NCBI GenBank assembly: GCA_030605125.1
Contig: JAUWBD010000016.1
Location: forward strand, 1-41,700
Reading direction: 5' to 3'
Length of the DNA: 41,700 nucleotides
Source of the DNA: Verrucomicrobiota bacterium
GTDB taxonomy: Bacteria; Verrucomicrobiota; Verrucomicrobiia; Opitutales; Opitutaceae
Position numbers and translations under genes: made by a program. Every line of letters starts with the position of its first letter. Within the stretch, counting starts at the first letter, position 1. The notes beneath the pieces are model-generated. The model was not told the DNA's origin. It saw only the letters and a list, made by a program, of their open reading frames with translations, and made no database searches. Positions 21,280-41,700 of the stretch are shown here, piece by piece.

Positions 21280-24200
21280 ATGCTCCCCCGCACGTTCCTC
21301 ACCCAGCTCGTTCCCGCCCGCGTCGCCGAAGCGATGCGCCGCGCCCAGGCGCGGATCTGGCGCCCGCTGCCCTCCGATGCGATCCGCGTGGAGCAGGCCG
21401 CGCCCACGCTGGAGTTTCGCAACGCCGCCCAGGTCCCCGCCTCCGACTTCAAGCCCCTGCCGGGCGCGTCTTTCCACTGGGGCCCGAAATACGCGCAGTC
21501 GTGGTTTCGCGTCACGCTGCCGCCCGCGACCGGCGCCGAGACGCGCTACTTCCGCTGGAACGACCAGGGCGAGGCGACCGCCTACCTCGACGGCGTGCCC
21601 TACTCCGGCCTCGACATCGCCCACCCGCAGATCCCGCTCCCCGCGGGCACCTCGCAGTTTCTCATCGAGGGTGTCTGCATCCGCTCCGGCATCTGGCTCG
21701 CCGGCGAGGCGGCGCGCATGGACGAGGAGGGCAGCCTCTACGCGCCCCCGCAGCTCCTCGCGCGCGACGACACCGCCTGGGCCGTTTATCACGATCTCAA
21801 GGTGCTGCTCGAGCTGCTCGAGGCTGAGTATCGCGAATACCAGCCCGCGCAATCCGGCCTACCCAAGCCCTTCACCGATCCCGTTCGCCACAGCCAGCCG
21901 GCCTTTCGCGCCAGCCCGCTTTTCCGCCGCCTCTGCGAACGTCTCGACCGCGCCATCGACCTCTACGACCGCGACGGCCTCGCGCCCTTCGCCGCGGAGC
22001 TGAAAAAAATCTACGCCGACCACAAGGCCGCGCCCGACTCCATCAAGGCCGTGCTCACCGGCCACGCCCACATCGACCTCGTGTGGCTCTGGCCCGAGCG
22101 CGTCGGCGAGGCCAAGGCCGTGCACTCCTGGTCCACCCAGACGCGCCTCCTGCGCGAGTATCCGGAATTCCGCTTCGGCTACTCGCAACCCGCCAGCTAC
22201 GAGGCCGTGGGCCGCCGCTCGCCCGAGCTGCTCGCGCAGGTGAAGACGCTCATCGCCGAGAAAAAATGGGACGCCACCGGCGCCGCCTACGTCGAAGGCG
22301 ACACGCAGATGCCCTGCGGAGAGGCGATCCTTCGCTGCCTGCGCATCGGCCAGGACGAGTTCAAAAAACTCCGCGGCACGCCCGCCGAGGTCTTCTGGCT
22401 GCCCGACGTCTTCGGCTACAGCGGCTGCATGCCGCAGCTCCTCCGCGCCGTCGGCGTGAAGAGCTTCTTCACCTCCAAGCTCTCCTGGAGCACGATCAAC
22501 CGCTTCCCCCACTCCAGCTTCCGCTGGCAGGGCCCGGACGGCGCCGAGATCGCCGCCCATGTCGTATTGATCCACGACTACAACGAGTGGGTGGACGTGA
22601 AACGCCTCCGCGAATGCGCGCTCCACCACCAGCAGTCGGGCGTGCATCCCGAGATGCTCATCCCCACCGGCTACGGCGACGGCGGCGGCGGCCCCACCGA
22701 GGAGATGCTCGAGCGCGCCCGCCGCGTCTCCGATCTCGCCGGCATGCCGCGCGTGGAGTGGGGCAACATCGAGCCCTTCTTCGAGCGCCTCGCGCAGGTG
22801 AAACAGGATCTGCCCGTCGTCGCCGGCGAGCTCATGCTCGAACTGCACCGCGGCGTCTTCACCACCCACGGCCGGCTGAAGGCCGCCTTCCGCGCCCTCG
22901 AACGCGCGCTTCAGACGCTCGAGGCGGCCCACGCGGCCCGCGGCCTCGGCCCCATCGACCTGCACTATTGGAAGCGCGCCACCTTCTCGCACTTCCACGA
23001 CTACATCCCCGGCAGCTCGATCTGGGAAGTTTACGCCGAGGCCATTCCCGAGCTGGAGACGCTCGCCGCCAAGGCCCTCGCCGAGGCGGCCTCCGTGCTC
23101 GAGGCCGGCGACGCCGCGACACCCGCCGCCGCCCGCGGCTGGTTCAACCCGCTCCCGCTCCCGCGCATCTGGATCGACGGCGACCGCTGCCACGAGCTCG
23201 CCCCGCTCTCCGGCGCGCCCGTCTCGGCGCTGCCCTTGCGAAAAGTCGCCGCGCCCTCCGCCACCGCCACCGAGCTGCGCAGCGACCGCGTGCGCGCCGC
23301 CTTCGATACCGAAGGCTCGCTCGTCGCGCTGGAGATCGACGGCCACCCCGTCGCCGTCACCGGGCACCGGCTCCAGGCCTACCCCGACCAACCGGCGACC
23401 TTCGACGCGTGGGACGTGGATCGCGCCGCACTCGTGCACGGCCACGCCGCGCGTCTCGTGGGCGCGCCCGTCGCGGCCGTCCGCGGCCTGGAGGCGTCCT
23501 TGGTTTTTGAATACGAAATCGTCCGCGCCAGCCGGGTGAAGGTGGTCTATTATCTTCGCGCCACGGAGCCGGTCCTCCGCGTGCGTTACGAGGTGGACTG
23601 GGCGGATCCGCTCCACTGGCTGAAGGCCGTCGTCACGACCGACTACCGCGGCCGCGAGGCCCGCTTCGGAGCGCCGGTCGGCAGCCAGCTCCGTGGCCAG
23701 TGGCCCGGCTACCCGCGCGAGGAGGCCCAGTGGGAGGTCTGCGCCAGCCGCTGGATGGTGCTCAGCGACGACGCGCAACACGACGGGCTCTCGCTCATCA
23801 CCGAGGCCAAATACGGCTTCACCGCCCGCGAGGGCGTGGTCGGCGTGAGCCTGCTGCGCAGCGCGCTCGTCACCGAGGCCGACGACCACCCGAAGATCCG
23901 GGCGACGCCCGACCGGCCGCGGCACTCCGATCTCGGCCGCCACGTCATCGAACTCGCCCTCGGCCGCCACGCGCCGGACCTGCCCGTCACCGAACAACCC
24001 GCCGCGCTCGCCGACCTCCTCTACACCCCCTGCGTGCCCTGCGGCACGACGGTCTCCGCGGGACTCGCCGCGATCACTGGCACGCCCTCGGCGGTGCCGT
24101 CCTGGGCCGAGCCGCTCGAAGGCGGAGCCTGGGCGCTGCGCCTCCACGAGACACTCGGGCGCCGCGGCCGCGCGACCGCCGCTCCCGCGGCCGGCTGGAG

Positions 24201-39587: not shown

Positions 39588-40961
39588 ATGCTCCGCATGA
39601 ACGTATCCACCCGCCCCGCCCTGCTCGAGCCCGCCCGCCACACCCCGGTCGTTTACGAGGCCGATGTCTGCGTGCTCGGCGGCTCCTGCACCGGCCTCTT
39701 CGCCGCCATCCGCGCCGCCCGCCTCGGCGCCCGCGTCGTCATCGTCGAGAAGGACAACTGCTTCGGCGGCGTGGCCACCACCGCCATGGTCAACGTCTGG
39801 CACTCGCTCTGGGACACCCTCGGCGAGCGCCAGATCATCGCCGGTCTCACCGAGGAGACCATGGACCGGCTCGACCGCCGCGGCGCCATGCGCCGCCACG
39901 AGCGCACCAACCCCTCGCGCGGCTTCACCTTCAACTCCGAGGAGCTCAAGATCGAGCTCGACGAGCTCGCCCGCGAGGCGCGCCTCAAGATCTACCTCCA
40001 CACCCAGTTCGTCGCGCCGATCCTCGAGGACGGGCGGCTCGTCGCCGTCGCCATCGAGAACAAATCCGGCCGCGGCGCGATCCGCGCCCGCATGTTTATC
40101 GACGCCACCGGTGACGCCGACCTCGTGGCGCGACTCGGCGGCGAGACCTACTTCGCCAACCAGCTCCAGCCCGCCACCGCCTGCGTGCGCGTCGGTGGCT
40201 GGGCCACGCTCGGCGAGGCCGGCAAACGCGTCGGCGACCTCATCCGCGAGCACGGCCCCGCGCGCGACCTCCCGCCCACCTTCGCCTGGGGCGGCCTCGT
40301 GCCCGGATCCGACACCTACATGCTCGCCGCCACCCGCGTGCACGGCATCAACCCGGCCGACGCCGACCAGCTCACCCACGGCGAGATCGAGGGCCGCCGC
40401 CAGATCCGCGCCATCCTCGACATCCTCCGCGAGGCCGCGCCCGAATCCCGCCTCTCGATCGAGGCCCTGCCCTCGCGCCTCGGCCTGCGCGAATCGCGCC
40501 ACGTCCGCGCCGTGTATTCACTCACTGGTGACGAAGTGCTCTCCGGCGCCTCGTTTCCCGACGCCGTCGTGCAGAGCTGCTACCGCGTGGACATCCACCA
40601 CCAGGACAAGCCCGGCATCACCCTGCGCTACCTCGACGGCACCGAGGAATACCATCGCCCGGGCTATCCCTCCGAGCGCCGCCGCTGGCGCCCGGAGACG
40701 CCGACCAACCCCACCTTTTACCAGGTGCCCTACCGCTGCCTCCTCCCGCGCGGCGTGCCCGGCAACGTGATCGTGGCCGGCCGCATGATCGACATGGACC
40801 CGCTCGCCCACGCCGCGGTGCGGGTGATGGTGAACATGAACCAAACCGGCGAGGCCGCCGGCGTGGCCGCCGTGCTCGCGCTCGATTCCGCCGGCGGTTT
40901 CCCCACGGTAAACACCGACACACTCCGCGAGGCGCTCCGCCGCGGCGGCTCCGCGCTCTGA
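39588..40961 (+). CDS. FAD-dependent oxidoreductase (FAD_oxidored family)
   Basis: A 457-residue protein; an ATG at 39597 is an equally possible start. The Rossmann dinucleotide-binding site reads ADVCVLGGSCTGLFAAIRAARLGARVVIVEKDNCFGG, with GGSCTG as a variant of GxGxxG. The second FAD contact region appears as ARMFIDATGDADLVARLGGE and NVIVAGRMIDMDPLAHAAVRVM, typical of this family. No signal peptide or Fe-S cysteines are seen. Such genes are frequent beside sugar-utilisation genes in Verrucomicrobia and Planctomycetes, but their substrates are mostly unknown. The gene is divergent from an AraC regulator and followed by a palindrome at 40968. It is the last gene before the composition of the window changes. 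Confidence 0.85.
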   Translation: MLRMNVSTRPALLEPARHTPVVYEADVCVLGGSCTGLFAAIRAARLGARVVIVEKDNCFGGVATTAMVNVWHSLWDTLGERQIIAGLTEETMDRLDRRGAMRRHERTNPSRGFTFNSEELKIELDELAREARLKIYLHTQFVAPILEDGRLVAVAIENKSGRGAIRARMFIDATGDADLVARLGGETYFANQLQPATACVRVGGWATLGEAGKRVGDLIREHGPARDLPPTFAWGGLVPGSDTYMLAATRVHGINPADADQLTHGEIEGRRQIRAILDILREAAPESRLSIEALPSRLGLRESRHVRAVYSLTGDEVLSGASFPDAVVQSCYRVDIHHQDKPGITLRYLDGTEEYHRPGYPSERRRWRPETPTNPTFYQVPYRCLLPRGVPGNVIVAGRMIDMDPLAHAAVRVMVNMNQTGEAAGVAAVLALDSAGGFPTVNTDTLREALRRGGSAL

Positions 40962-40967
40962 CATCCG

Positions 40968-40984
40968 CAATCTAGACTAGATTG
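40968..40984. terminator. 17-base palindrome after the oxidoreductase gene
   Basis: CAATCTAG-A-CTAGATTG is a perfect inverted repeat starting 7 bases after the stop. As RNA its loop would be too tight for all pairs and no T-run follows, so a weak terminator or a protein-binding site are both possible. The stretch 40985-41100 holds only weak symmetry (GCATCAT…ATGATG). Confidence 0.35.
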
Positions 40985-41100
40985 ATAGAAGCCTCACGGT
41001 TTCTTTTGCTGGCCGGACAAAGATTGGAGCAGCGCAATCCCTACTTTAGTCTGGCCGGGCGCATCATTGATAAAAGTTCTTCATGATGTCGCATTGGGAC

Positions 41101-41215
41101 CCCGAAAAGGGACCGAGGCGTTGTTTATTGATGCGGGAGGGTAGTCCTCATCGGAGGGATTGGCCGAAAAACAGAAATCAACAAACAACGCCCAGCCCCT
41201 TTGGCTCGGCCCCCA
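41101..41215. repeat. Long imperfect inverted repeat
   Basis: GGCGTTGTTTATTGAT (41117-41132) pairs with ATCAACAAACAACGCC (41177-41192) with one mismatch. The similarity extends outward through AAAGGGACCGA (left, before 41117) and CAGCCCCTTTGGCTCGG (right, after 41192). A small GAGG/CCTC hairpin lies inside. The outer motif recurs at the window end (41681-41700), on the other side of the lipoprotein gene. Confidence 0.55.
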
Positions 41216-41234
41216 TTATTTGGCACTCTGGCCT

Positions 41235-41654
41235 TCACCGTGCTTTGGTTGGCTCTGGAGGTTCGCTTCTTTTTTCGATTTCATGCTTCACCATTCTATA
41301 GGCGAGCGTCCGTGCAATTGACGTCTTCCGGGCTTCTGAGTAATCGAGAAGCCCCCTTGTAAGTTCAGACAGAGGCATCCCCATTTTTTCGGCCTCGAGG
41401 AGAATCTGCTCCAATTCCTTTTGGCCTATTAAGGGGAAATTTTGTCCAAACACATCCCCTCTCTCCGCAACTATCGCTTTTACTGCGAAGTCGAACTCCT
41501 TCTCGTCCATGGTCTGCACGTCAGGCACGTATCTCGCTAGATTAGAAGACCTTAGAGCTATTCTAAACTCCCGCTCCACTGAGGTGCCACTAGCGCAAGC
41601 AGCAAAAACCGCAGACCAGGCACCCAAAACAACAAAAGCCAACCTTTTCATCAT
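41235..41654 (-). CDS. Small predicted lipoprotein of unknown function
   Basis: A 139-residue protein starting with two adjacent ATG codons. The N-terminus MMKRLAFVVLGAWSAVFAAC is a lipoprotein signal with the modified cysteine at residue 20. The mature part is charged and helical (VPDVQTMDEKEFDFAVKAIV; KELEQILLEAEKMGMPLSEL) with no recognised domain. Sampled lines of the gene have about half G+C, well below the genes to its left, and codon choice is more A/T-tolerant. Together with the flanking repeat motifs on both sides, this suggests a separately acquired segment. I do not recognise a family. A gene is supported by the signal sequence, lipobox and consistent protein-like composition. Confidence 0.65.
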   Translation of the reverse strand: MMKRLAFVVLGAWSAVFAACASGTSVEREFRIALRSSNLARYVPDVQTMDEKEFDFAVKAIVAERGDVFGQNFPLIGQKELEQILLEAEKMGMPLSELTRGLLDYSEARKTSIARTLAYRMVKHEIEKRSEPPEPTKAR

Positions 41655-41680
41655 TTATTATCAAACAGGTCTTTTATAGG

Positions 41681-41700
41681 CCCGGCAAAGGGGCCGAGGC
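41681..41700 (+). repeat. Partial copy of the flanking repeat, cut by the window end
   Basis: AAAGGGGCCGAGGC at the end of the window matches AAAGGGACCGAGGC at 41106-41119 in 13 of 14 bases and the same orientation. The window stops where the copy at 41101 continues with GTTGTTTATTGAT. The 580-base spacing encloses the lipoprotein gene exactly. Confidence 0.5.

Follow-up and report, generated by a model that had tools for sequence, protein, structure and literature searches.

In the available part of PMC3733652, TIRtrons are described as genes for tyrosine transposases (TIRYTs, TIR-associated tyrosine transposases) with TIRs on either side; some of these TIRs share the sequence GGGGWSAS, and TIR families are described as dispersed and often dimeric. 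The same part reports that the verrucomicrobium O. terrae is rich in GTAG repeats, so that this second kind of repeat occurs in the phylum too. In PMC6006769, as far as its available text goes, 20 of the 26 TIRYTs fall into its subclass 2.1, and TIRYTs probably correspond to what that paper classes as TnpA-REP subclass 2.1. TnpA-REP cuts near REPs and leaves a 3'-OH (PMC8266576, available part).

We analyzed a stretch of 41,700 nucleotides, hereafter called the window, which is the entire contig C107 of a 4.88 Mb assembly of an Opitutaceae genome (271 contigs, 95.7% complete). An earlier note had proposed that a palindrome and a lipoprotein gene near its right end follow the plan of a gene-cassette array. 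The analysis reported here indicates that the palindrome is very probably a dispersed TIR dimer of a TIRYT-type, RAYT-like Y1 (HUH) transposase, situated beside an unrelated orphan gene.

An imperfect palindrome in the low-G+C end of the window

From roughly 40,900 onward, the window has a G+C content of 0.49-0.56, compared to ~0.70 before, in keeping with the drop previously noted from about 40965. The features of this segment are collected in Table 1. An imperfect palindrome, earlier described as 115 bases long, was recovered by a repeat search as two 40-nt arms (41093-41132 and 41177-41216) that are 70% complementary, and the further copy of its outer motif that had been seen beyond the gene is likewise present. 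The outer AGGG ends of the dimer lie at 41108 and 41200, which gives 93 bp outer-to-outer. As DNA, the minus strand of the palindrome folds better than 200/200 dinucleotide shuffles (z -3.46); the plus-strand fold is weaker (z -1.69, with 10/200 shuffles equally good), and the best ungapped 17-base inverted match, 15/17, was reached in 1/200 base shuffles. These values give the palindrome no more than moderate significance as long as the window is taken by itself; its decisive support comes from the recurrence of its arm elsewhere. Comparison of the flanks revealed no target-site duplication marking the window dimer, and Rfam gave no match at E <= 1 in 40900-41700.

Table 1. Coordinates of the features of the window and list of loci with nested duplications
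Feature	Position	Strand	Remarks
Imperfect palindrome, very probably an inverted pair (dimer) of a terminal-repeat element	41093..41216	.	boundaries set by hand
Minus arm AAAGGGGCTGGGCGTTGTTTGTTGATTTCT	41173..41202	-	top-scoring matrix site of the window; 31.9 bits against another background
Plus arm, degenerate outer end, inner half GGCGTTGTTTATTGAT	41106..41136	+	2 mismatches to the pattern at 41106-41132
Third copy, outer part only GCCCGGCAAAGGGGCCGAGGC	41680..41700	+	cut by the contig end
Orphan lipoprotein-like ORF (P0001), 139 aa	41235..41654	-	between dimer and third copy; at most a putative part of the element
Nested duplications	L058, L063, L079, L090, L096, L102, L109, L115-L117, L121, L123, L127, L129, L132, L135-L137, L139

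The 139-residue lipoprotein gene of the earlier note is borne out as a lipoprotein-like ORF that starts MMKRLAFVVLGAWSAVFAACASG, with a signal peptide and a plausible lipobox as judged by eye. Its product has no relatives at E <= 0.001 in the 249 other genomes of the family, no NCBIfam match at E <= 0.001 and nothing of note in Pfam (best E 0.13, below cut-off). Because of its low G+C content and this lack of relatives, it is probably an acquired gene. The left neighbour (P0003, 39600-40961) encodes an FAD-oxidoreductase-like protein for which an NCBIfam scan gave no model over cut-off. An empty site was sought through relatives of this gene; no relative was found at E <= 1e-60 in 18 other genomes, and hence no empty site. 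Directly past it, at 40969-40983, lies a small palindrome, AATCTAGACTAGATT. A Pfam scan of 26 ORFs, hand-picked from those of the window and some of them in overlapping frames, identified glycoside hydrolases, LacI-, GntR- and AraC-type regulators and other genes; a recombinase gene, thought worth seeking next to the supposed array, did not emerge, as no recombinase or transposase domain was found among these ORFs.

The minus arm resembles the terminal repeats of Y1 transposase genes

In genome G019, a gene for a 315-aa Y1 transposase (P0002) lies between inverted copies of GGGGTCAGGCCGTTGTTTGTTGAT. P0002 matches PF01797 (Y1_Tnp) with an E of 2.5e-12 and the NCBIfam model for REP-associated tyrosine transposases with an E of 1.1e-18, its 67.5 bits being under the model cut-off of 80; none of the solved structures matched it at E <= 0.001. 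Relatives at E <= 1e-20 are present in 162/250 genomes of the family, that of the window included. In genome G011, three tandem RAYT-like gene matches were observed at C1:723159-725763. For the analysis of flanking repeats, 30 transposase loci were examined, these being the top-scoring ones, one per genome. A plus-oriented end upstream together with a minus-oriented end downstream of the transposase was found at 26/30 loci, a count that is not independent of the end matrix since the matrix was partly built from those loci. The constant spacing is independent of it: the outer-to-outer distance was 1,002-1,028 bp in 25 of the 26 loci, the exception (L137) measuring 1,131 bp. The loci devoid of an inverted pair were L128, L129, L130 and L133, of which at least L128 runs into the edge of its contig. 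With the plain motif, matches were found downstream of the transposase at 27/30 loci, upstream at 20/28 and on both sides at 17/28, compared to 120/3,608 random 160-base stretches of the same loci searched on one strand, the downstream stretch being up to 220 bases long.

For the window, we used a matrix built from 42 ends of 29 genomes, the window's own being excluded, and 50 Markov-randomised windows as a null. The minus arm scored 36.1 bits, compared to a null maximum of 12.7, and the next unrelated site of the window scored 2.9. The plus arm (41107-41136), taken by itself, reached 6.0 bits and did not exceed the null maximum; it is assigned through its inverted pairing with the minus arm and its identity to the pattern (2 mismatches in 27). 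At a threshold of 15 bits, the matrix detected 66 ends in stretches that surround dispersed copies and were chosen for holding them (445,905 bases in all), and 1 in the 342,986 bases of 20 control stretches. By its minus arm, the repeat of the window appears to be of the same type as the terminal repeats that flank the transposase genes.

Dispersed copies of the repeat

Other copies were expected in the genome if the earlier note was right, and two were found, on contigs C46 (23.5 bits by the matrix, one unrelated site of this contig giving 12.4) and C142 (28.4 bits), which together with the window makes three loci. Both are single copies beside other genes and, by reading, sit just past ORF ends. 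With up to 3 mismatches the pattern was found in 5/38 genomes, and a shorter pattern with up to 1 mismatch in 17/250 genomes of the family, the window's own being included in each count; a reversed-pattern control gave 0 in every listed genome. Among the 11 listed records with the repeat are Ereboglobus, which is a member of Opitutaceae, Opitutus and Rariglobus, and the titles of some others read Verrucomicrobiaceae, Chloroflexi, Akkermansia and Thermoflexus.

Several observations were made on the surroundings of the copies. The C46 copy (L005:6569-8446) follows a lipoprotein-like gene with DUF6794, which itself follows the 3' end of an apparent RHS gene, identified by reading. In genome G195 (C2:989781-991735; L078, L089), two copies bracket a block of small genes that look toxin/immunity-like by reading; as in the window, the outer ends of the copies point toward the enclosed genes. 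These two cases suggested a general link to RHS toxin/immunity genes, which was rejected as the core motif was present in 2/30 stretches near copies and in 0/20 controls, which is too few. The sequence GGCCGAGCCRAA occurs outside the element at the window minus arm, at the C46 and C142 copies and at the upstream end of a transposase locus on contig C148; it directly precedes GGGG in three of the four, and in C142 it is found farther out by some 15-20 bases. This may point to an element that is longer, or to a site that is preferred in this genome.

To the window dimer of 93 bp we compared seven other dimers, hand-picked from the list of matrix hits, which measure 64, 96, 98, 99, 129, 253 and 276 bp outer-to-outer; the repeat type of the 253-bp one (L181) is divergent. 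The arms of these dimers are identical at 20-28 of 28 ungapped bases, whereas the window arms agree at just 13, because they are one base out of register.

A resident transposase carries a different inner half

The genome of the window (G000) has four PF01797 matches. One of them, on C148, is related to the G019 enzyme (59% identity), and its locus (21760-22832; L109, L122) has inverted ends GGGGTCAGGCCGCGTTTTGTTGC with stacked duplications downstream. Allowing 3 mismatches, repeats of this GGGGTCAGGCCGCGTTTTGTTGC type were found at three places in the genome, all at the C148 locus. The inner half of the window repeat differs from the C148 type and resembles the G019 type. A transposase with the window's repeat type was not found in the 95.7%-complete assembly. 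Since the genome's own transposase has a different inner half, the cognate enzyme would be absent, lost or unassembled and, for the same reason, the window copy is probably a relic or an orphan, or is mobilised by another enzyme.

Comparison with described systems

As in TIRtrons, the Y1 gene in G019 and at C148 lies between inverted repeats that start GGGG[AT][CG]A[CG], and further copies are scattered over the genome, in part as dimers. GGGGWSAS thus fits the G019 and C148 repeats (GGGGTCAG). In contrast, it is absent from the outer ends in the window (AGGGGCTGG, AGGGACCGA and GGGGCCGA), where the copies vary from the motif (GGGGCC, GGGGCT, GGGACC); the motif is reported for some TIRs, not all, and is not a strict requirement. 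The locus further differs from the described cases in that its genome has yielded no transposase with its own repeat type, and the available text of PMC3733652 and PMC6006769, figure species lists aside, names no TIRYT of Opitutaceae. With GTAG REPs, BIMEs and REPINs and their RAYTs, the window repeat shares the organisation in short inverted pairs between genes and the tie to a Y1 transposase, but it has few copies in the genome and there is no GT[AG]G at the foot of its hairpin, which by reading is AAAGGGG or AAAGGGA. Integron attC sites are similar in being imperfect palindromes 3' of a small gene; the window differs in having no RYYYAAC or GTTRRRY in the palindrome, no IntI over cut-off in its genome and no visible array.

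Alternative readings of the palindrome

The orphan gene, which is low in G+C, has copies of the repeat on either side, and a similar layout exists around the toxin/immunity-like genes of G195, as would be expected if the repeats were the ends of a small composite element with the lipoprotein gene as cargo. However, the minus arm and the third copy face this gene with their outer GGGG ends, which is the reverse of the orientation around transposase genes, and RHS core motifs occur near copies in just the 2/30 stretches mentioned above (0/20 in controls). We consider this reading unlikely. The earlier suggestion of some other repeat-flanked mobile unit is partly borne out: the repeat matches the end of a mobile element, and the gene is at most its putative cargo.

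It is very unlikely that the palindrome serves the lipoprotein gene solely as a transcription terminator or as a hairpin that stabilises its mRNA. Its position just 3' of the gene, its strong fold on the gene's strand and the similar position of the C46 and C142 copies, by reading, are all compatible with such a role, but a plain terminator is not expected to keep 20-25 bases of sequence across genera, nor to match the ends that flank transposase genes. REPs can act as mRNA 3' ends, and the hairpin may likewise form, as a secondary function, the mRNA 3' end of the lipoprotein gene.

An integron-like cassette, made of the lipoprotein gene and one recombination site, would account for a low-G+C gene that has a single structured repeat behind it and another, partial copy ~580 bases away, yet it is hardly credible: the GTTRRRY/RYYYAAC core, rightly reported as lacking, occurs on neither strand of 41085-41225, the 5 matches to the integron integrase model TIGR02249 in the 95.7%-complete assembly are all below cut-off (best 76.5 vs 265 bits), the gene has no homologue at E <= 0.001 in the 249 other genomes of the family, the other two copies are single, the repeat flanks transposase genes elsewhere and, on either side of the gene, the outer ends of the repeat are turned toward it.

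Several observations also stand against the preferred reading of the palindrome as a dispersed TIR dimer. The copy number is low, with three loci in the genome; the 6.0 bits of the plus arm are within the null; the window copies depart from GGGGWSAS; and the searches described above found no cognate enzyme, empty site or target-site duplication. In addition, PMC6006769 states in its available text that in the authors' own searches no REP-like sequences turned up next to genes of subclass 2.1 (TIRYT). As for how such a dimer would spread, the single-stranded dimer may fold, the transposase would nick near the foot of the folded structure, and the nicked dimer would then be spread in trans by the enzyme, as proposed for REPs and BIMEs. 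The movement of the window element itself is putative.

Nested duplications at the outer ends of the repeats

Just outside GGGG, a stretch of 9-15 flanking bases (~12) together with 3-32 bases of the element is tandemly duplicated at 28/126 matrix-defined ends. Such nested duplications were found at 11/66 ends around dispersed copies and at 17/60 ends of transposase loci, whereas the same test was positive at 73/11,350 random positions and 61/2,358 other GGGG sites; the loci behind these controls overlap, duplicates among them were retained, and some sites of the GGGG set may be true ends on one strand. With ends defined more laxly, the test was positive at 31/224. In places the duplications lengthen, with the element part truncated and repeated before the full copy. 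An assembly error is unlikely to be their cause because they are also present in genomes of one or two contigs (G017, G075, G019). The window's own copies were not flagged.

An origin of these duplications as target-site duplications was considered and rejected. In a comparison of flanks that covered 26 transposase units and 8 dimers, direct repeats of at least 6 bases were found in 2/26 units (6 and 8 bases) and 0/8 dimers, 2,000 random pairs giving 1%; with such counts there is no general 12-base duplication around whole elements. A tentative and rather doubtful explanation is that the duplications are the footprint of how a TIRYT lays down its repeats: an HUH nick at a constant ~12 nt outside GGGG would provide a 3' end that primes repeated and often aborted copying of the end of the element. 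Among the matches listed in a literature search, no title dealt with such end duplications, and we do not claim them as unreported.

Discussion

With the palindrome read as a TIR dimer, a false cassette lead is removed and the repeat is tied to a transposase family with relatives in most of the sampled genomes of the family (162/250). The palindrome of the window would then be an ordinary example of a little-studied kind of repeat. If the duplications do reflect primed copying, the mode would be replicative, unlike the cut-and-join transposition of IS200/IS605. The regular duplications offer a concrete and testable clue to the possible cut site of the enzyme.
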